The translations under genes and the position numbers were made by a program. From assembly GCA_016196035.1 (NCBI GenBank), contig JACPYM010000081.1, forward strand, positions 1-47,794: DNA of 47,794 nt, given 5' to 3'. Position 1 is the stretch's first letter, and each line of letters opens with the position of its first letter. A model generated the notes under the pieces. It was not told the DNA's origin, made no database searches, and saw only the letters and a program-made list of their open reading frames with translations. This document shows, in pieces, positions 15,539 through 34,808 of this stretch. This DNA comes from Acidobacteriota bacterium. GTDB taxonomy: Bacteria > Acidobacteriota > Blastocatellia > RBC074.

Positions 15539-16408
15539 TTATCCCTGCACTAGCGTCCCATACGTATCAGGGCGCCGGTCGCGGAAGAACTGCCACGTAT
15601 TGCGCACTTCGCGGATCATATCCAGATTCAAATCGGCCACGACTACGGCGTCTTCGTCACGCGGCCCTTGCGCAACGATTTGGCCGCGCGGATCGCAGAA
15701 ATAACTCTGACCGTAAAACTCGCCGATGTTCCAGGGCGCTTCAACACCCACGCGATTGATCGCGCCGATAAAATAACCATTCGCTGCCGCGTGTGCAGGC
15801 TGTTCCAGCTTCCACAGATATTCGCTCAAGCCCGCGACTGTCGCCGACGGATTGAAGACGATTTCAGCGCCGTTCAAACCGAGAGAGCGCGCGCCTTCGG
15901 GAAAATGCCGGTCGTAGCAGATATACACACCGATACGCGCATACGCCGTGTCAAAGCACGGGTAGCCCAGATTGCCGGGCTTGAAATAGAACTTCTCCCA
16001 AAAGCCGGGCGCGACGTGCGGGATGTGGTTCTTGCGGTACTTGCCCAGGTATTTGCCGTCGGCGTCAATCACGGCGGCGGTGTTGTAATACACTCCCGCC
16101 TGCTCTTCTTCGTAAATCGGCACGACCAGCACAATGCCGTGGTCGCGCGCGACTTCCTGCATCAGCTTGACTGTGGGGCCGTCGGGAATTTTCTCGACCG
16201 CGTCGTACCAGCGCGTCTGCTGTTCGGCGCAAAAGTACGGCGTAGTGAAAACTTCCTGCATGCAGACGATCTTGGCGCCCGCGCGGGCGGCGGCTTCGAT
16301 CAGGTTCAGGTGGCGCTCGATGTTGATCTTTTTGATCTCGTCAATCGGCAGATCGGTCGGCGCGGCGTTCTTTGCTTGTATCAAACCACATTTCACAATG
16401 CGTGCCAT
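15539..16408 (-). CDS. Carbon-nitrogen hydrolase, beta-ureidopropionase-like (nitrilase superfamily)
   Basis: The protein has 289 residues. The nitrilase triad is complete: E52 (CMQEVFTTPYF), K126 (YRKNHIP) and C164 (GVYICYDRHFPEGAR). Beta-ureidopropionase hydrolyses N-carbamoyl-beta-alanine or N-carbamoyl-beta-aminoisobutyrate to the beta-amino acid, CO2 and ammonia. That is the next step after dihydropyrimidinase, encoded in the same cluster. N-carbamoyl-D-amino acid hydrolase is in the same superfamily and would fit hydantoin use instead. The permease gene upstream ends 54 bases before this start, inside the family C palindrome. Confidence 0.88.
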   Translation of the reverse strand: MARIVKCGLIQAKNAAPTDLPIDEIKKINIERHLNLIEAAARAGAKIVCMQEVFTTPYFCAEQQTRWYDAVEKIPDGPTVKLMQEVARDHGIVLVVPIYEEEQAGVYYNTAAVIDADGKYLGKYRKNHIPHVAPGFWEKFYFKPGNLGYPCFDTAYARIGVYICYDRHFPEGARSLGLNGAEIVFNPSATVAGLSEYLWKLEQPAHAAANGYFIGAINRVGVEAPWNIGEFYGQSYFCDPRGQIVAQGPRDEDAVVVADLNLDMIREVRNTWQFFRDRRPDTYGTLVQG

Positions 16409-16421
16409 AATTGCTCCTCAT

Positions 16422-16511
16422 CGGTACCGCGCGCGTCAGCAAGCGGCACCTTCAAATTTGCTCAATTGGTTGAAGTTGACGACGCACCGCTTGCTGACGC
16501 GCGCGGTACCG
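16422..16511. repeat. Palindrome with perfect 25-bp arms (family C, copy 1) that ends the permease gene
   Basis: Arms at 16422-16446 and 16487-16511 are perfect (core GGTACCGCGCGCGTCAGC and complement), with a 40-bp centre. The right arm is inside the permease gene and encodes TVPRASASG; the permease stop codon lies in the centre (16462-16464). A second copy lies at 27363-27434. Confidence 0.93.
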
Positions 16512-17997
16512 TTGCGGGCGGAAAGGTCTTCATCAACCCATAATGAACTACCGCTCCCACACCAAAGCCCACAAACCAGCCATAATCGAAGAGTGGCTTA
16601 AACAGCGGGACTTTCCAGCCAATCAGCGCCAACCCGCAACCTATAGCAGTGGCAACCACGGCGCGCCAATTCCACCCACTCGCATAGGTGTAGCAGCCAG
16701 TTGTCCGATATAAATCGCCCAATACCAATTCCCGATTGCGCACCAGCCAGTAATCCGCAATCAAGACACCTGCAATTGCGCCTAAGCCTCCCGAATAACC
16801 ATTCAGCCAACGAAAGATATAAACGTCCGGGCTGGAAAGCAGCTTCCACGGCTGCATCGCAATGCCGAGCAAGCCGGTAATCAGGCCGCCCGTGCGGAAC
16901 GAGATCAGCTTCGGGAAGGCATTCGCAAAATCGTTGGCGGGCGAAACGACGTTGGCCGCGATATTCACCGCCAGCGTCGCCACCACCGCCGTGAACATCG
17001 AAAGCGCGACGACAAAGACGTTGCTGAATTGCCCAACGACCTTGAGCGGGTCCCACAACTCTTCGGGCTTCATCTGCGGATAGATCACGATGGCCGCCGA
17101 AGTAATCATCACACCCATCGCGGCAAAGACGGTCATCGTCGTTGGCAAGGCCACGACCTGGCCGACGGTCTGTTCGCGCTGGCTGCGTCCGAAGCGCATG
17201 AAGTCGGGCATATTCAACGACAGCGTCGCCCAGAATCCGATCATCGCCGTCAGCGACGGAATGAACACAGGCCAGAATTCCCCCAGCGTTTGGAACTTAC
17301 CCGCATTGGTGAAGAGCGTGCCCAGGCCATCGGCGCGCCAAATCGCCCAGCCCAGCAACACCGCCGTCATCACCAGCACATACGGCGCGGCCCAGTTTTC
17401 GACCGCGCGCAACAAATCCATCCCGCGATAGATGATCCAGATGTTCAGGCCCCAAAAGAGCAGAAACGACAGCCACTCCGTCCCCGTATGCCCACCGACT
17501 GGCCCGCCCAGCAGCGTTTGCCAGCCGGGAATGATGGCCTTGAAAAAGGTGTGCAGCGCCTCTCCGCCGATCCACGCCTGAATGCCAAACCAGCCGCACG
17601 CCACAATCGCGCGCATCAACGCGGGCAGATTCGAGCCGATGGTGCCGTAACTCGCGCGCGCAAACACGGGGAACGGAATGCCGTATTTCGTGCCCGGATG
17701 CGAGTTGAGCAAGATCGGAATCAGCACAATCGTATTGCCCAGCAAGATCGTCACCAGCGCCTGCCACCAATTCATCCCCGCCGCAATCAAGCCCGACGAG
17801 AGCATATAAGTCGGGATGCAATGCGCCATCGAAATCCACAGCGCCGCATAGTTATACGTCGTCCAATTGCGTTGCTGGATGGGCACGGGCGCGAGGTCTT
17901 CGTTGTAGAGCGGGCTGGCGCTGATGGCGGCGGGGTCGCGGAGTTCAACGCGACCGTCTGGGTGGTGGATGGTTTCGGGAACATTTTTAGCGGACAT
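16462..17997 (-). CDS. NCS1-family nucleobase/hydantoin:cation symporter with repeat-derived C-terminus
   Basis: The protein has 511 residues with about twelve hydrophobic segments. NCS1 signatures are the N-terminal LAPVPIQQRNWTTYNYAALW, WWQALVTILLGNTIVLIP, GIPFPVFARASYG and GLNIWIIYRGMDLLR. Family members import uracil, cytosine, allantoin, thiamine or hydantoins with Na+ or H+. Here it probably feeds the pyrimidine or hydantoin pathway encoded around it. Residues 496-511 (TVPRASASG and following) are encoded by the family C palindrome, so the original stop has been lost. The first gene downstream is the nitrilase. Mhp1-type hydantoin transport is an alternative. Confidence 0.92.
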   Translation of the reverse strand: MSAKNVPETIHHPDGRVELRDPAAISASPLYNEDLAPVPIQQRNWTTYNYAALWISMAHCIPTYMLSSGLIAAGMNWWQALVTILLGNTIVLIPILLNSHPGTKYGIPFPVFARASYGTIGSNLPALMRAIVACGWFGIQAWIGGEALHTFFKAIIPGWQTLLGGPVGGHTGTEWLSFLLFWGLNIWIIYRGMDLLRAVENWAAPYVLVMTAVLLGWAIWRADGLGTLFTNAGKFQTLGEFWPVFIPSLTAMIGFWATLSLNMPDFMRFGRSQREQTVGQVVALPTTMTVFAAMGVMITSAAIVIYPQMKPEELWDPLKVVGQFSNVFVVALSMFTAVVATLAVNIAANVVSPANDFANAFPKLISFRTGGLITGLLGIAMQPWKLLSSPDVYIFRWLNGYSGGLGAIAGVLIADYWLVRNRELVLGDLYRTTGCYTYASGWNWRAVVATAIGCGLALIGWKVPLFKPLFDYGWFVGFGVGAVVHYGLMKTFPPATVPRASASGASSTSTN

Positions 17998-18025
17998 ACA
18001 AAGCCTCTTGCTTAAATTATGAGTG

Positions 18026-18709
18026 TCACTTTTGCTTCGGAAGCTTAGAGGCTGCTTGGGGAAGGATGTAAACCCCGTTCAATAGATGCTCGACGACATT
18101 CATTGCAATAGACAACTGTTCGTCCGAGTGCGGTTTTACTTCGTGAGCAGCATCATTGCCTAGAGTTCTCAAACTGTGAAGAATCTCTGCCCCATCCTTA
18201 GTCAGTACCCCCAGCGCTACTAAGCTATCAATATTTTCTTTTAGATTCTTGCCAGAAGCTTCTTTCTCCTTACATACCGTCTCTATCAATGCTCGTATAC
18301 CAATACCCGCCAATACGGGCATTTTGTTGCAGAGTGCGGAATGGGTTTCTTTGTAGATATTTGCCACTTGAGAAGGAAGAAAATGCATATCACTTAGTTG
18401 GCGCCTTCCCGCAACACGGCTAGGATATAAGCTCTCATCAGGTATATAAATGTCATCACCATCACTTACTTCTACATAGCTATCTGAACTCCCATGAACC
18501 TCACGGAACGAGATCTCTTCGCAACCATTACATTGAACAATCTGGTATAGATCTTCCCACCAGTACGCTAAAGGCGGAGTTCCCTCTACATTATCGATAT
18601 CCACTGATTGCATCACACGATGCTTAGTTTTGATATGGCACTGTCTACACGGTAGCCGATGCTCCTCATTCTGTGACTTGTTGATAACTGATGTTGTTTT
18701 GACACTCAT
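18026..18709 (-). CDS. DUF4145-domain protein with zinc-knuckle N-terminus
   Basis: The protein has 227 residues from ATG 18709. Two Cys pairs, C21-x2-C24 and C60-x2-C63, form a likely zinc ribbon. The DUF4145 helical domain follows (GIGIRALIETVCKEKEASGKNLKENID, LRTLGNDAAHEVKPHSDEQ). DUF4145 proteins are often found near restriction or defence genes; the molecular role is unknown. Base composition is clearly more AT-rich than the neighbours and codon choice differs (many TCT, TAT, AAT), which suggests recent transfer. It lies between the permease and the HNH gene and has no link to the pathway. Confidence 0.82.
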   Translation of the reverse strand: MSVKTTSVINKSQNEEHRLPCRQCHIKTKHRVMQSVDIDNVEGTPPLAYWWEDLYQIVQCNGCEEISFREVHGSSDSYVEVSDGDDIYIPDESLYPSRVAGRRQLSDMHFLPSQVANIYKETHSALCNKMPVLAGIGIRALIETVCKEKEASGKNLKENIDSLVALGVLTKDGAEILHSLRTLGNDAAHEVKPHSDEQLSIAMNVVEHLLNGVYILPQAASKLPKQK

Positions 18710-18778
18710 AAAGCCATTGCTCCGTCTTGTAAGAGTGGCTGACTTTAAGCAGATCATTGATAACCTGCACCACGCCAT

Positions 18779-19180
18779 TTACGGGAAAAGGCCAAACCGC
18801 ATCCAATGCGCCCTCGCCGCCAACGAAAATGCCTGATTCATGCGCAACCGCTGCACCGTAGCGCGCCCAATTTCAGTCAAGCCTAAAATCTTTCGGCTTT
18901 CTACCTCGACGGTAAAATGTTCTTCCCACCGATCTTGCCGCGGATGAAAAAGCCGGATTGCCTGCTGTGAGGCTTCATCAAAGCCCGTGAGGTAATCGCC
19001 TTTGAAAAGATTGCAAGCGCGGCAAGCCAGTGCCAGATTCGCTTCGTCATCACTCCCGGCATGGCCTTTTGGGTGAATGTGCTCGACTTCAAAGGCGTAG
19101 TTGAAAATATCTTCGGGCGCGCGGCAATACTCACAACGATGCGCCGCGCGTTCTGCCACCAAAGGGTAGTGCGGATTCAT
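18779..19180 (-). CDS. HNH endonuclease
   Basis: The protein has 133 residues. A treble-clef HNH core is visible: CEYC (C16, C19), EVEHIHPK (H34, H36) and CRACNLFKG (C53, C56). Such small HNH proteins nick or cut DNA with a metal ion. The ATG overlaps the stop of the preceding 120-residue gene by 4 bases (ATGA), so the two are translated together and probably function together. It lies inside the pyrimidine-type cluster between the permease side and dihydropyrimidinase, and is most likely a mobile or addictive insert. Confidence 0.88.
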   Translation of the reverse strand: MNPHYPLVAERAAHRCEYCRAPEDIFNYAFEVEHIHPKGHAGSDDEANLALACRACNLFKGDYLTGFDEASQQAIRLFHPRQDRWEEHFTVEVESRKILGLTEIGRATVQRLRMNQAFSLAARAHWMRFGLFP

Positions 19181-19539
19181 GGCGCTAAATCCAGCAGTGC
19201 TTGTTCAGCACGCCGTCCCGCGCCTTGCACTTCAGCCTCTATCAAAGCTTCCAGTTCAAGCTGTTCATGCGGCGGCAACTGTTGGCCTGTATCGCGAGCC
19301 ATGCGCCATTGCGCCATCAGCGCCGCCAGCCGTTGCTGTTGCGCCGCGCTAAAAAACTGATCGGGCCGTTTTGATCCCACGATCACCCGCGCTTCGGATT
19401 CATCCAAAGCCAATTGCGCAGCCAAAGCATCCAATGCTTCGCCCATTGTCTTGCCCTGCGAACGTTTGTCACCTGCTACAGCACGCCAGATGATTTCGCC
19501 CGGTACGGGATGTTCAGGAATGATTGAGATCGTCGTCAT
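19177..19539 (-). CDS. Uncharacterised partner of the HNH endonuclease
   Basis: The protein has 120 residues from ATG 19539 (MTTISIIPEHPVPGEIIWRAVAGDKRSQGKTMGEALDALAAQL). The motif GSKRPDQFFSAAQQQRL in the middle is one I associate with proteins next to such HNH genes in cyanobacteria and related bacteria, from memory only. The N-terminal half resembles a small beta-strand/helix antitoxin-like domain; the C-terminal half is helical and acidic. The stop overlaps the HNH start (ATGA). It could be an antitoxin, inhibitor or specificity partner. No catalytic motif was found. Confidence 0.7.
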   Translation of the reverse strand: MTTISIIPEHPVPGEIIWRAVAGDKRSQGKTMGEALDALAAQLALDESEARVIVGSKRPDQFFSAAQQQRLAALMAQWRMARDTGQQLPPHEQLELEALIEAEVQGAGRRAEQALLDLAP

Positions 19540-19595
19540 CGCTATGTCCTCTTGTTCGGTTTCCGGCAATCGCCATTAGACGGCTAAAGGTAAAC

Positions 19596-20987
19596 TCAGT
19601 GCGCTCCCGTCTCACCACGCTTCAAAAACTGCCCCGCGCCCGCCTGCCCTTTCCATTCCCCATTTTCGACAATCACGTTGCCACGCGACAGCACGACTTC
19701 GGTCACGCCCTTGATCGTCCAGCCTTCATACGCGCTGTAATCCACGCGCATGTGATGCGTCGCGGCGCTGATCGTCTGTGCGCGGTTGGGATCGAAGATG
19801 ACGATGTCGGCTTCGGAGCCGACGGCGATGGTGCCTTTGCGCGGGAAGAGGCCGAAGATTTTGGCCGCTGCCGTCGAAGTCAGTTCGACAAAACGATTGA
19901 GGCTGATGCGGCCCTGCGCCACGCCACCGTTGTAAATCAGGCTCATGCGGTGTTCGACGCCGGGGCCGCCGTTGGGAATCTTGCTGAAATCGTCAATGCC
20001 CAGCTCCTTTTGCTCTTTCATACAGAACGGGCAATGGTCGGTCGAGATGACTTGCAGATCGTTGCTGCGCAAGCCGCGCCAGAGCAGTTCCTGATTCTCT
20101 TTGCCGCGCAACGGCGGCGTCATCACGTACTTGGCGCCTTCAAACCCTTCCTGTTCGTAGTAGCTGTAATCCAAGAACAGATATTGCGGGCAGGTTTCGG
20201 CGTAGGCCGGCAAGCCAAGGTCGCGGGCATTTTGGACTTCTTTGAGCGCGTCGTAACAACTCAGATGCACGATGTAAACGGGCGCTTCGGCCATTTCGGC
20301 GATGGCGATGGCGCGGTGCACGCCTTCGGCTTCGGCCTTAGTGGGCCGCGTCAGCGCGTGGTATTTCGGCGCGGTGCGCCCCGAGGCCAGCGCGCGTTTG
20401 ACCAGCACGTCAATGATGACGCCGTTTTCAGCGTGCATGCAGATCAAGCCGCCGTGCTCGCCCGCCTTGGTCATCGCTTTGAAGATCGTCCCGTCATCCA
20501 CCAGAAACACGCCGGGGTAGGCCATGAACAGCTTGAAGCTCGTCACGCCCTGATCAATCAAACCTTTCATTTCTGGCAAGCGCTCGTCAGGCAGATCGGT
20601 GCAAATCATGTGGAAGCCGTAATCGGTCGTCGCCTTGCCTTGCGCTTTGGCGAACCAGACATCAAGGGCTTCGTTGAGCGCCTGCCCGTGCTGCTGGACG
20701 GCGAAATCAATGATCGTCGTCGTGCCGCCAAAGGCCGCTGCGCGCGTGCCGGTTTCGAAATCATCGGACGAAGACGTGCCGCCGAAAGGCAAATCCATGT
20801 GTGTGTGCGGATCAATGCCGCCGGGGATGACCAGTTTGCCGGTGGCATCAATCGTTTTGTCTACGGTGCCGACGATGGCGGAAAGGTCTTTGCCGATCAT
20901 GGCGATGGTTGCGCCTTCGATCAGGATGTCGGCGATGTAGGAATCAACGGCGGTGACGATGTGGCCGTTTTGGATGAGGGTGCGCAT
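19596..20987 (-). CDS. hydA: Dihydropyrimidinase / D-hydantoinase
   Basis: The protein has 463 residues. ATG 20987 is chosen over GTG 20996 because AGGAG lies 7 bases before it. Metal-binding residues of the cyclic amidohydrolase family are complete: H61 and H63 (GGIDPHTHMDLPFGG), the carboxylated K152 (VTSFKLFMAYPG), H185 (CMHAENG), H241 (HLSCYDALKE) and D317 (STDHCPF). It opens 5,6-dihydrouracil or dihydrothymine (or 5-substituted hydantoins) to the N-carbamoyl amino acid. The PIN toxin gene stops 5 bases before the start, so translation may be coupled. The nitrilase and aminotransferase in the cluster supply the next two steps. Confidence 0.95.
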   Translation of the reverse strand: MRTLIQNGHIVTAVDSYIADILIEGATIAMIGKDLSAIVGTVDKTIDATGKLVIPGGIDPHTHMDLPFGGTSSSDDFETGTRAAAFGGTTTIIDFAVQQHGQALNEALDVWFAKAQGKATTDYGFHMICTDLPDERLPEMKGLIDQGVTSFKLFMAYPGVFLVDDGTIFKAMTKAGEHGGLICMHAENGVIIDVLVKRALASGRTAPKYHALTRPTKAEAEGVHRAIAIAEMAEAPVYIVHLSCYDALKEVQNARDLGLPAYAETCPQYLFLDYSYYEQEGFEGAKYVMTPPLRGKENQELLWRGLRSNDLQVISTDHCPFCMKEQKELGIDDFSKIPNGGPGVEHRMSLIYNGGVAQGRISLNRFVELTSTAAAKIFGLFPRKGTIAVGSEADIVIFDPNRAQTISAATHHMRVDYSAYEGWTIKGVTEVVLSRGNVIVENGEWKGQAGAGQFLKRGETGAH

Positions 20988-20992
20988 AAACT

Positions 20993-21418
20993 TCACTCCT
21001 GATTAGTATTGAGTTGAGTTATCAGTTCAGCGGGTGTGAATGCGGGAATTATGGAATTCCGAAAGCCGTCTTTGTCGCGTGTGACGATCGCGTCCAGATC
21101 GGCAAGCGTGGCACAAGCGATTTGCAAATTGTCTTCGAAGTCAACGCCGGGCAAATCCAGCGCCTGCTCCAATGCCCGCCGATCAACTTGGCAAATCGCA
21201 AACGTATCAAGGCAGACACGAATTGCGTCGAAGGCGCTAGTCAGCCCTTTATGCTTGCGCGCGATGTAGAAAATGTCGGTGAGCGTCGAGGCCGTCAAGC
21301 AGCCCATAATTCTTCCCTCATCGCAAGCCTGCCAACAACCAGCAGCTTCGGCATCCCAAGGCGCGCGTTTCAGCAAAGCGTCGAGCAGCACGTTGGTGTC
21401 AAAGAGCACTTGCGTCAT
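20993..21418 (-). CDS. VapC-like PIN-domain RNase toxin
   Basis: The protein has 141 residues. PIN motifs are D7 (VLFDTNVLLDALL), STLTDIFYIARK, D93/D96 (GVDFEDNLQIACA) and VTRDKDGF near 112-119. The TDIFYI motif is typical of the PIN_3 group of toxins. Its ATG overlaps the antitoxin stop by 4 bases. It lies directly upstream of dihydropyrimidinase with a gap of only 5 bases, so the module is embedded in the catabolic operon. Confidence 0.85.
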   Translation of the reverse strand: MTQVLFDTNVLLDALLKRAPWDAEAAGCWQACDEGRIMGCLTASTLTDIFYIARKHKGLTSAFDAIRVCLDTFAICQVDRRALEQALDLPGVDFEDNLQIACATLADLDAIVTRDKDGFRNSIIPAFTPAELITQLNTNQE

Positions 21419-23092: not shown

Positions 23093-23193
23093 CTTGCCAC
23101 AGAGGCACGGAGTCACAGAGAAAAAGACAGAAGGAGCCATAGCGCAAGGCCATGCCGGTTCTCCGCTCTGTGACTCCGTGCCTCTGTGGCAAG
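23093..23193. repeat. Palindrome with perfect 28-bp arms (family B, copy 1)
   Basis: Arms at 23093-23120 and 23166-23193 are perfect complements (core CCACAGAGGCACGGAG), with a 45-bp centre. It lies between the divergent aminotransferase and TPR genes and is followed on the plus strand by CTTTT. A diverged relative is at 31241-31331. Confidence 0.92.
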
Positions 23194-26002: not shown

Positions 26003-26105
26003 CTTTGGAGTGCGCGCGGCACAGGCCGCCGCTTTGGTAATCCCTTGGTTAGCAAATGATCAAAGGCTTACCAAAGCGGCGGCCTGTGCCGCGCGCACTC
26101 CAAAG
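26003..26105. repeat. Palindrome with perfect 38-bp arms (family D/E, copy 1)
   Basis: Arms at 26003-26040 and 26068-26105 are perfect complements (CTTTGGAGTGCGCGCGGC...GCTTTGG), with a 27-bp loop. It lies between convergent genes (lectin gene stop 25941, reductase stop 26123), where it could end transcription from both sides. A related copy is at 30128-30286. Confidence 0.95.
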
Positions 26106-26122: not shown

Positions 26123-27349
26123 TCAGCGGCTGTCTGGGGCGGTTCCAATTTCAATCGCCATACCCGCCTGTTTCAACCGTTCGGCCAAAATGTCGCCCAA
26201 GCCAGTCGCCGGCGTCAACAAACCGCCATGTGGCGCGCCGCCAGGCAAAGCGGCGGGATTACCTGTTAAACATAAGGCCGATTCGCACAGAAATTTCACT
26301 GTGGCGCGATTGCCAGGATCGCCTTGGCCTTTGATGACGCCGCGCACCTGACGACCATCTACCGCCACACCCAGTAATTCACAGCGGAACCAGCCTTCAT
26401 TCATCGTCTTTTCCGCAGGCCCCTGCCCCGGCGCGGGCAACACGGATTTCAAGAGGGGCCGCAGCGGCGATTGCAGCGCCAATTCAAACAGCGTCGCGCC
26501 CGCCGCTAATCCGCCAGCCGGCAGCCAGCCCAGCGGGCCGTTGAATTTGGTGTATTCCTGATAACTGAACTCCGCGCCATACCCCGCCTGCCATTCACTG
26601 AACAGCGCCTGACTGCGGCGCACGACGCGCGTGTTGATCGGCCCCATCACAAACGGCGCGACCCACGCGCCCGCGTCGGCGTCGTAATGCGGCGTGACTG
26701 GGTCCTGGTTTTGCCGTAAAGCGGCGCGTGTCGCCTCCGGCACAGGGTTCAGCAAAAACGGATGGCGCGCGTGGACGGCCTGCCCGCTTTCATACAGGTT
26801 GAAGGCCGTCGCCAGCGTGCCGCCATTCACGCCGCCCGCCATTTGAAAGTAGGCTTTGACGCTCCGGCAATCCACACCGAATTGCTGTTGGATGTGACGC
26901 GCCATCAGGAACGCGCCCAAATCGGAAGGCACCGAGTCAAAGCCGCAAAACGGAATGATGCGCGTGCCCGTCGCGGCGGCTTCGGTGTGGTAACGATCAA
27001 TCAACTCTCTGACCCAAACGGTCTCGCCCGTGATGTCTACGTAATGTGTCTGGTGGCGCACGCAGGCATCCACGAGCTTCGTACCGTACAAGGCAAACGG
27101 CCCGGCGGTCGTGAGCACGACACGCGTGCGCGCGGCGATGGCATCCAACGCGGTTTGATCCTGACTGTCAGCGACGAGGATGTCAGCCGAAGCGCCGATT
27201 TCAGCTTGCACGGCAGCCAGCTTTTCATGATTGCGCCCGGCCATGGCCCAGCGCACGTTTGGCGCATGCTGAGCGAAATAGGCGACCGTCTGTTTGCCGG
27301 TAAAACCGCTCGCGCCATACAACACGACATCGTAATCACGGGTTTGCAT
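26123..27349 (-). CDS. Saccharopine-dehydrogenase-like NAD(P)-dependent reductase (trans-acting enoyl reductase family)
   Basis: The protein has 408 residues. The Rossmann motif is at the N-terminus (YDVVLYGASGFTGKQTVAYFA). Further family landmarks are TAGPFALYG, HYVDITGE and CGFDSVPSDLGAFL. The same architecture is shared by mycobacterial trans-acting enoyl reductases and saccharopine dehydrogenase-like lipid-associated proteins. The substrate is unknown, possibly an acyl chain. The PNPOx-family gene upstream on the same strand and the 28-bp-arm palindrome in between suggest a weak operon. The C-terminus (GTAPDSR) ends just before palindrome D/E. Confidence 0.85.
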   Translation of the reverse strand: MQTRDYDVVLYGASGFTGKQTVAYFAQHAPNVRWAMAGRNHEKLAAVQAEIGASADILVADSQDQTALDAIAARTRVVLTTAGPFALYGTKLVDACVRHQTHYVDITGETVWVRELIDRYHTEAAATGTRIIPFCGFDSVPSDLGAFLMARHIQQQFGVDCRSVKAYFQMAGGVNGGTLATAFNLYESGQAVHARHPFLLNPVPEATRAALRQNQDPVTPHYDADAGAWVAPFVMGPINTRVVRRSQALFSEWQAGYGAEFSYQEYTKFNGPLGWLPAGGLAAGATLFELALQSPLRPLLKSVLPAPGQGPAEKTMNEGWFRCELLGVAVDGRQVRGVIKGQGDPGNRATVKFLCESALCLTGNPAALPGGAPHGGLLTPATGLGDILAERLKQAGMAIEIGTAPDSR

Positions 27350-27362
27350 AGGGGCCTACTTT

Positions 27363-27434
27363 GTACGGTACCGCGCGCGTCAGCAAGCGGCTGCCTACGC
27401 TGCGCACCGCTTGCTGACGCGCGCGGTACCGTAC
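27363..27434. repeat. Palindrome with perfect 28-bp arms (family C, copy 2)
   Basis: Arms at 27363-27390 and 27407-27434 are perfect (GTACGGTACCGCGCGCGTCA and further), with a 16-bp loop. The same 24-bp core occurs at 16422-16511, 11 kb away. Here it sits in the gap between the PNPOx-family and reductase genes without entering either reading frame. Confidence 0.95.
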
Positions 27435-27441
27435 CGATACG

Positions 27442-27921
27442 CTATTCCTGCCAAGTCAGAATCTTGCCGCCCTGCCCCAACATCAGACTGCCCGGCATCA
27501 CGCGCAAGCGCCAGGGTTCCAGCCGCAACGCGACAAAGGCGTCGCACGTCGGGCTTGTCCAGGCGGGAATGATTGCGGGGTTGTAGCCGAGCGGCGCCGG
27601 CGTGCTGTCAAAGAGATTCCACAGCATCGTGCGCGTCTCTTCGTCAAAGGCCCAACTGGCGCGGCATTCGGCGACGCAAGTGTCGTGGTTCGCGGCCCAG
27701 TAATTCAGCGACAGATACGGGCTGGCTTGCAGGTGCGCGCGTTTGGTCGGCGTCGGCGAAGTGCCAATCCAACCGACCAACTTCGCGCCGTCCCATTGCC
27801 AGATCGGATGCAGGACGCGCGAACGCGGACGGCCCTGGGCATCCACCGAGGCGGCACTGGCCCAGACGATGCGATGCGCCATTTCGACAAAGGCGGGAGC
27901 GACTTCCTTTAACTTTTGCAT
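27442..27921 (-). CDS. Pyridoxamine 5'-phosphate oxidase-family protein
   Basis: The protein has 159 residues. The split-barrel flavin-binding signature is seen in VWASAASVDAQGRPRSRVLHPIWQWDGAKLVGWIGT, followed by SPYLSLNYWA. Members bind FMN or F420 and reduce or oxidise small molecules, and many are of unknown substrate. It is shorter than true PdxH and lacks its PLP-binding motifs, so a general PNPOx-like role is the safest call. It lies upstream of the saccharopine-like gene on the same strand. Confidence 0.85.
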   Translation of the reverse strand: MQKLKEVAPAFVEMAHRIVWASAASVDAQGRPRSRVLHPIWQWDGAKLVGWIGTSPTPTKRAHLQASPYLSLNYWAANHDTCVAECRASWAFDEETRTMLWNLFDSTPAPLGYNPAIIPAWTSPTCDAFVALRLEPWRLRVMPGSLMLGQGGKILTWQE

Positions 27922-30001: not shown

Positions 30002-30127
30002 CTCGTTCAGTTTCCTTCTTTTGAGTTATTGAGTGGGGTTGTGCGCTGCGCAGTATAGCAGCGATGTGGCGGAACGGGGAACAGCAGCGCAAGGGAGATA
30101 AATGAAGCTTGTGCTTATTTCGGTATG

Positions 30128-30286
30128 CGCAGCCTTTGGAGTGCGGCGGCTCGACGCCGCTTTGGTAGGCCCTCGGCAACAGACGTGCAGCAGGCAGTCA
30201 AAGCCAATGGCAAGTGTTCCCGGCCTGCTGTCCCGAGCCAAAGCTATGCCAAAGCGGCGTCGAGCCGCCGCACGCCAAAGGCTGCG
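30128..30286. repeat. Inverted repeat with 38-bp arms (family D/E, copy 2)
   Basis: Arms at 30128-30165 and 30249-30286 match at 37 of 38 positions (CGCAGCCTTTGGAGTGCGGC...). The 83-bp centre holds no gene. Outer arm sequence CTTTGGAGTGCG and CCGCTTTGG are shared with the copy at 26003-26105. It lies in the 449-bp non-coding gap 30002-30450 upstream of the HerA-like gene. Confidence 0.93.
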
Positions 30287-30349
30287 CCGCGCCAAAGTAT
30301 TGACGGGCCGCCGGAGAAATAAGCACAGGCCTCAGATAATTGCCCACCA

Positions 30350-31240: not shown

Positions 31241-31331
31241 GTTTGCCAGAGAGGCACGGAGGCACGGAGGAAAAACAGCAATTCCCTGCTCACTTAGAAA
31301 TCCTCTGTGTCTCCGTACCTCTCTGGCAAAC
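31241..31331. repeat. Inverted repeat with 30-bp arms (family B, copy 2)
   Basis: Arms at 31241-31270 and 31302-31331 match at about 26-27 of 30 positions (TTTGCCAGAGAGGCACGGAG). They share CAGAG/GAGGCACGGAG blocks with the perfect copy at 23093-23193. It lies between the EVE and VOC genes. Confidence 0.88.
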
Positions 31332-31760: not shown

Positions 31761-31857
31761 GTGTCAGTAGCCCGACTGTGAAGGAGGGCTGGCTTCAAGT
31801 GAAACCCAATCAATCTGATTTGAAGCCAGCCCTCCTTCACAGTCGGGCTACTGACAC
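31761..31857. repeat. Palindrome with perfect 38-bp arms (family H)
   Basis: Arms at 31761-31798 and 31820-31857 are perfect complements (GTGTCAGTAGCCCGACTGTG and further) with a 21-bp loop. It starts 6 bases after the VOC stop and ends 14 bases before the DUF2461 start. Genes are in the same direction, so it separates two units. Confidence 0.95.
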
Positions 31858-34734: not shown

Positions 34735-34808
34735 AAGAGCATGGAGTTCAGGCTTCAGCCTGTCTGGGAAATCTCGCAGACAGGCTGAAGCCTGAACTCC
34801 ATGCTCTT
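34735..34808. terminator. Palindrome with perfect 32-bp arms (family I), probable two-way terminator
   Basis: Arms at 34735-34766 and 34777-34808 are perfect complements (core GAGTTCAGGCTTCAGCCTGT) with a 10-bp loop, followed by TTTTT on the plus strand. It lies between the convergent hydrolase and metalloprotease genes. Confidence 0.8.

Follow-up and report, generated by a model that had tools for sequence, protein, structure and literature searches.

How did the last residues of an NCS1 permease come to be encoded by one half of a palindrome? The question is raised by contig C81 of a 9.59-Mb draft genome in 139 contigs; this contig, 47,794 nt long, was analysed over its whole length and is called the window below. 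The features around the permease end, and a second copy of the same palindrome, are the following.

15539..16408, minus strand: downstream carbon-nitrogen hydrolase, 53 nt after the permease stop and on the same strand
16422..16446, plus strand: REP, non-coding (downstream) arm of the doublet, from the palindrome search
16447..16486, no strand: 40-nt spacer between the arms, encoding the last tail residues and the TGA stop
16462..16464, minus strand: TGA stop codon of the permease, within the spacer (ORF call)
16462..17997, minus strand: NCS1-family nucleobase:cation symporter of 511 aa, ending in the repeat (ORF call, profile matches)
16465..16512, minus strand: repeat-derived tail TVPRASASGASSTSTN, residues 496-511, predicted to be disordered (translation, structure model)
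16487..16511, minus strand: REP, coding arm of the doublet, reading CGGTACCGCGCGCGTCAGCAAGCGG on this strand
27363..27434, no strand: second copy of the same REP doublet, intergenic, with 28-bp arms and a 16-nt loop

The permease and its palindrome

In the profile search the permease ORF exceeds the cut-offs of both PF02133 (405 bits) and TIGR00800 (392.7 bits). The two arms of the palindrome are complementary at 25/25 positions and enclose a loop of 40 nt. Codon arithmetic agrees with the initial annotation, which had derived residues 496-511 from the right arm and the centre of the palindrome: the coding arm specifies two of the three bases of T496, all of V497-S503 and part of G504, the codon of G504 straddles arm and spacer, and residues 505-511 as well as the stop are found in the spacer. 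The stop had likewise been ascribed to the element. This holds in so far as the TGA (16464-16462) lies in the spacer of the doublet; it is not part of the repeat core.

On its other side, the downstream arm is separated by 13 nt from the ATG of the hydrolase gene and by 2 nt from a GAGGAG ribosome-binding-like site. The best NCBIfam match of this hydrolase is N-carbamoylputrescine amidase (261.8 bits, under the cut-off of 410.25). Permease, amidase-like hydrolase and a dihydropyrimidinase (TIGR02033, 625.8 bits) share one strand at 15539-20996, possibly as a cluster for pyrimidine or hydantoin use. A transcription terminator at the permease end was considered and set aside; no T run follows the hairpin. 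The second doublet lies, as had been noted before, outside any gene, between a gene ending at 27349 and one starting at 27442 (own gene calling).

A family of inverted REP doublets

The 21-nt core of the palindrome (up to 3 mismatches) is present four times in the window, against a mean of 0.01 in shuffled sequence. The genome search for the core that the initial annotation had proposed returned 680 matches in the 9.59 Mb, against a single one for the reversed control. A sample of 1.99 Mb, consisting of 1.95 Mb fetched plus the window, was used to resolve the single elements. With up to 4 mismatches, a 24-mer of the repeat occurs 138 times in this sample and its reversed control 0 times. The copies form 71 elements, 61 of which are simple inverted (+/-) pairs that form hairpins, and the loop measures 37-41 nt in 52 of these 61 doublets. 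A single REP comprises 24 nt and is predicted to fold into a GGTA head, a 4-bp stem, a 2x2 internal loop, a 2-bp stem and a GTNA tetraloop. The genome contains a second REP with different letters and an identical predicted fold.

The two arms of a doublet resemble each other more closely than arms drawn from different doublets at random. The arm-to-arm identity, determined for 60 of the 61 pairs over the 24 REP and 6 flanking positions, amounts to 27.32, and the maximum of 500 shuffles is 26.52; the agreement is clearest at the third tetraloop base (0.85 versus 0.48). Since the arms match beyond all 500 shuffles, the doublet itself is the unit, as described for REPINs (PMC3116915). The repeat shares further traits with REPs and REPINs: a high copy number, a mostly intergenic position (63/71 sampled elements), inverted doublets with a spacer and complementary arms, and a predicted imperfect hairpin. 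The 5' GT(A/G)G head given for RAYT-flanking REPs (PMC2817692) is replaced by GGTA(C). Judged from its sequence, the permease palindrome is probably a REPIN, i.e. two inverted REPs that make up a non-autonomous mobile element.

In addition, 21 of the 61 doublets lie within a larger palindrome with TTAGATCGGTTTTCAC-like (TAGAnCGG-like) outer ends, which may represent a separate mobile unit of larger size in this genome. This larger form is absent at the permease doublet.

The window also contains palindromes of other kinds. The inverted repeat at 31761-31857 has perfect arms of 38 bp containing GTAGCCCGAC..GGAGGGCT; four copies, counting the one in the window, are present in the 1.99-Mb sample when up to 4 mismatches are allowed. 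It resembles the GTAG-headed repeat found in the flanks of a related transposase, the homologue at locus L281 in another genome of the class. The palindromes at 23093-23193 and 31241-31331 are made of CCACAGAGGCACGGAG-type units, one 24-mer of which occurs 49 times in the sample with up to 4 mismatches, versus 2 for the reversed control. Three more, at 26003-26105, 30127-30287 and 34735-34808, have 15-19 copies of the tested stretch each (up to 4 mismatches), with 0-1 in the controls.

A candidate transposase

The genome has 14 Y1_Tnp matches, and the one at C64:88435 is located directly between inverted pairs of the repeat, with REP pairs on both sides (L122/L255). Around the other 13, no repeat copy was found within about 1.5 kb on each side at up to 6 mismatches. 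Because a tyrosine (HuH/Y1) transposase gene sits between repeat copies, the system is of the REP/RAYT type. The C64 protein scores 29.3 bits against Pfam Y1_Tnp (cut-off 23) and 25.5 bits against the RAYT family NF047646 of NCBIfam, which is below the curated cut-off of 80. A sequence search of the PDB with the transposase gave two matches, both with E >0.8, and thus no relative.

The C64 protein contains HVH at positions 100-102 together with Y160 and Q165, corresponding to the HuH motif and the Y----Q signature of class 3. The Tyr and Gln are invariant across four aligned transposases. The first His of the HuH motif is not, as the motif reads HAH in the protein from C18 of the same genome and RAH in that of G008. 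Y160 of the C64 protein is the putative catalytic Tyr. The CnGA foot of the class 3 flanking hairpins is missing from the repeat, which begins with GGTAC.

A protein search added the C18 protein as a second homologue of the same genome; the Pfam matches do not include it. Both its gene and the homologue on C42 of genome G003 are flanked by the second REP with the same predicted fold. Transposase matches were obtained by protein search in 59/118 genomes of the class, the source genome included. The 32 best-scoring homologous loci were taken for a comparison of flanks, and two were dropped (one had too short a flank, the other shared only an N run). A 14-mer or longer word is common to both flanks in 24/30 assessable loci and lacking in 6/30; in the source genome the same was seen for 15/1000 random stretches and 6/298 genes of 400-700 bp. 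A stem of score at least 12 in both flanks is present at just 5/31 homologous loci. Protein search found no match to the C64 transposase in G009 (83% complete) or G006 (96% complete), two related genomes with 83 and 24 core copies, respectively, at up to 2 mismatches. From its position between the repeats, a RAYT-like tyrosine transposase, the one encoded at C64, most likely moves the REPIN.

Orthologues with and without the repeat

The C-termini of permease orthologues were compared, as the initial annotation had advised, and the repeat-free ends within the family are unrelated to the tail. They read FPPKMK in G006, IPPQPK in G008 and VPMRLAEELS in G007, each followed by the stop. In the source permease FPPA is followed by TVPRASASGASSTSTN and the stop. 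In a gap-free alignment the stops of the three orthologues fall 2 (G006), 2 (G008) and 6 (G007) codons past codon 496, where the repeat begins. Judging from the stops of these relatives, the element landed at the old stop or a few codons before it and gave the gene a new tail and stop, as had first been proposed.

The wider set comprises 80 orthologous loci (L031-L110), 77 of which have a readable end. A VPRA tail occurs in only one of the 77, L032 of genome G009, and L032 is also the only one of the orthologous loci with the repeat anywhere (up to 4 mismatches), at the same site as in the source permease. The same tail without the palindrome, which the initial annotation had named as the observation that would speak against it, was accordingly not encountered among the 77. 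In G009 the permease ends with FPPETVPRA, and the tetraloop GTAA gives the stop; a tandem copy that follows after 61 bp has the tetraloop GTCA. The relatives thus give good support to an insertion of the repeat at the permease end. G006 and G008 belong to the same genus as G009, and G007 to the family. No permease match was found in G001, a same-genus genome that is 73% complete.

A gene end together with the first REP arm has been tandemly duplicated at L032:3424-3547 (61-bp unit) and, in the source genome, at C15:216781-216918 (51-bp unit). Similar arrays of the first REP arm are seen at L026, L271 and L275.

Recurrence at other gene ends

Gene ends in the 1.99-Mb sample were assigned with a home-made gene caller. 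Apart from the 63 intergenic elements, 3 lie over a 3' end, 3 over a 5' end and 2 inside called genes; the 5' overlaps are possibly misplaced starts. The three 3' fusions are the permease, a gene on C5 (...HSQTVPRA) and a gene on C15 (...LVGAVPRA). For the C15 gene, a same-genus orthologue ends with ...LVASG, in a genome where the core has no match with 2 or fewer mismatches. For the C5 gene only distant homologues were found (46% and 33%), and their ends differ. Three ORFs of G009, the permease among them, also end with VPRA and a stop, in 21 contigs picked for holding hits. The permease fusion is one of several such events and not unique. At L259:1796-1860 of G009 a whole REP doublet lies in frame in a long ORF, with 411 open codons before it and hundreds after it, and is apparently read through.

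The elements are often close to stop codons. Among the 63 intergenic elements, 23 REP edges are located 0-15 nt after a stop codon. Uniform placement in the gaps gives a mean of 4.15, and 0/1000 runs reach 23. When the elements are moved within their own gap, the mean rises to 17.6 and 28/1000 runs reach 23. As this own-gap excess is slight, the closeness to stop codons is mainly a consequence of the short gaps in which the elements lie. At same-strand and convergent junctions, an element edge lies 2-15 nt from 24/80 gene 3' ends that face the element.

These numbers bear on whether the source permease and that of G009 were hit separately, by REPs that prefer the bases around stop codons. Such a pair of independent insertions is the alternative that survives best, and it is given odds somewhat short of even. 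The repeat is missing in G006, G008 and G007, so a shared origin needs several losses; the spacers of the two permease doublets differ (40 nt in the source, 15 nt in G009), each being near its own genome's usual length; and the near-stop edges greatly exceed uniform placement. However, the same spot would have to be hit twice. In the two genomes the spacing between the edges of the element and both neighbouring genes is identical, 14/17 bases agree over the stretch that leads from the element to the end of the ATG, and the own-gap control reduces the preference for stop codons to a slight one. The two permease fusions are perhaps one event.

The hairpin at the junction

A second alternative holds that a strong hairpin between permease and amidase was selected, for mRNA stability, for ribosome stalling near the stop or for coupling of the two genes, and that the tail is a side effect. 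A single extended hairpin is indeed predicted for the mRNA at the junction (-77.1 kcal/mol for 150 nt). In the preferred explanation, given below, a hairpin is likewise left between the two genes, where it may affect the mRNA. Ribosome stalling is reported for E. coli REPs that lie no more than 15 nt from a stop codon (PMC12306157, citing Liang et al. 2015), and by analogy similar stalling is possible at the permease stop. Furthermore, a palindrome is located at this junction in 5/5 readable genomes of the family (L125, L032, L127, L128 and L033), each exceeding its own 20 shuffles, and these palindromes are of three unrelated kinds.

Against selection of a hairpin stands the wider comparison, where only 11/22 short junctions exceed their own shuffles overall and 6/17 do so outside the family (7 longer junctions, which had no shuffle control, are excluded from these counts). 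The background of the source genome points in the same direction: a stem score of at least 12 is reached at 170/548 (31%) short same-strand junctions, 56/100 convergent and 4/34 divergent ones, and by none of the junction shuffles (five each). Because 170/548 short same-strand junctions have such a stem, the one at the permease junction is not special, and the idea of a special hairpin requirement there is weakened. A selected hairpin is considered unlikely as the reason why the element is kept.

The new tail

In the AlphaFold2 model of the permease (mean pLDDT 75.7), the last helix spans residues 473-491. The pLDDT is below 50 over residues 500-511 and about 30 over residues 501-511. Counted after the last conserved residues, the tail has 22 residues, compared to a median of 14 in the 77 relatives (range 5-50), and is equalled or surpassed in length in 8/77. 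Given this predicted disorder and the variable length in relatives, the permease most likely tolerates the tail without using it; the tail is probably a disordered extension beyond the last helix and close to neutral.

The opposite view, in which the peptide TVPRASASG... has acquired a function in the permease (targeting, stability or interaction), is very improbable. It could draw on the VPRA part that G009 has at the same site, but the coding arm of G009 stops after VPRA, and therefore the longer part has not been kept. With tails this variable and a predicted disorder, conserved tail function was rejected as a lead.

Finally, a chance palindrome is untenable because of the core copy number (680 versus 1 in the genome, four versus an expected 0.01 in the window), and an assembly artefact, for which only the draft state of both assemblies (139 contigs for the source, about 850 for G009) could be cited, is practically dismissed by the element at the same site in the second assembly.

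How the permease end may have been rewritten

The preferred explanation is that a REPIN, most likely moved by the RAYT-like enzyme, inserted at the permease stop or a few codons before it and supplied a new tail and stop (probability about 0.88). The proposed course is short. Once the REPIN had inserted at this position, translation would run through the first arm until the TGA in the spacer, since all three frames of the incoming REP are open with the tetraloop GTCA. Relative to the two sister orthologues, which stop at the position of residue 498, the permease would gain 14 residues.

The tetraloop adds a further aspect to these fusions. One frame of the REP reads V-P-R-A and then GTNA, which contains the stop TGA or TAA with G or A at N, respectively, and is read through as Ser with C. 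All 6/6 3'-end fusions, three in the source genome and three in G009, use this VPRA frame. The two arms differ at the tetraloop base in 4/6 fused doublets versus 10/75 others (Fisher p 0.007), in a post hoc test with small numbers and with G009 contigs chosen for holding hits. In the four differing fused doublets, the partner arm has the read-through form in three cases and another stop form in one.

It is tempting to regard the REP as a stop-codon cassette that lands on a stop and gives a short (A/T)VPRA end, with a single change of the tetraloop base toggling between this short end and a long tail into the spacer, like that of the permease. This reading is speculative and rather improbable. 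Equally doubtful is its corollary, that the coding arm tends to keep the stop form even where the partner arm does not.

Comparison with known systems

The closest parallels are REPINs (PMC3116915) and the RAYT-flanking REPs of 2010 (PMC2817692). As far as these are described there, they share with the repeat studied here the inverted REP doublet with a variable spacer and complementary arms, the high copy number, the mostly intergenic position and a tyrosine transposase flanked by the repeat. They differ in the head, which is GT(A/G)G in those REPs and GGTA(C) here, in a different sequence and phylum.

The class 3 TnpAY1 (HuH) transposases (PMC6006769) are similar to the C64 protein in that a HuH protein with Y----Q forms a REPtron-like system with hairpins by the hundreds. 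The hairpins flanking class 3 genes are described with a CnGA foot instead of GGTA(C). According to the same source, class 3 TnpAY1 is known from Acidobacteria, among others, with about 600 hairpins in Solibacter usitatus. Transposase-linked repeats are also mentioned for Koribacter versatilis (PMC3733652), and palindrome counts are given for three Acidobacteriota including Chloracidobacterium thermophilum (PMC12306157). A literature search over titles and the starts of abstracts recognised no description of this REP/transposase pair for Acidobacteria or Blastocatellia.

Rickettsia palindromic elements, as summarised in PMC3733652, are likewise palindromic repeats translated in a host protein. 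They belong to an unrelated host lineage and are mainly insertions within genes, whereas the element at the permease replaces a gene end. That mobile repeats supply gene ends is a known phenomenon, as REPs that contribute a stop codon and C-terminal amino acids have been published before (PMC3733652). In the GTAG- and CGTC-tagged REPs of that 2013 report, the stop is provided by the TAG that ends the REP. In the repeat described here, the stop is found in the tetraloop (TGA or TAA after VPRA) or, for the permease, in the spacer, and the presence of a stop codon in the REP tetraloop may be a new detail. With the general phenomenon already known, the value of the locus lies in this tetraloop stop codon and in a clean, testable example, where orthologues with and without the repeat document the way in which mobile repeats can reshape a protein's C-terminus.
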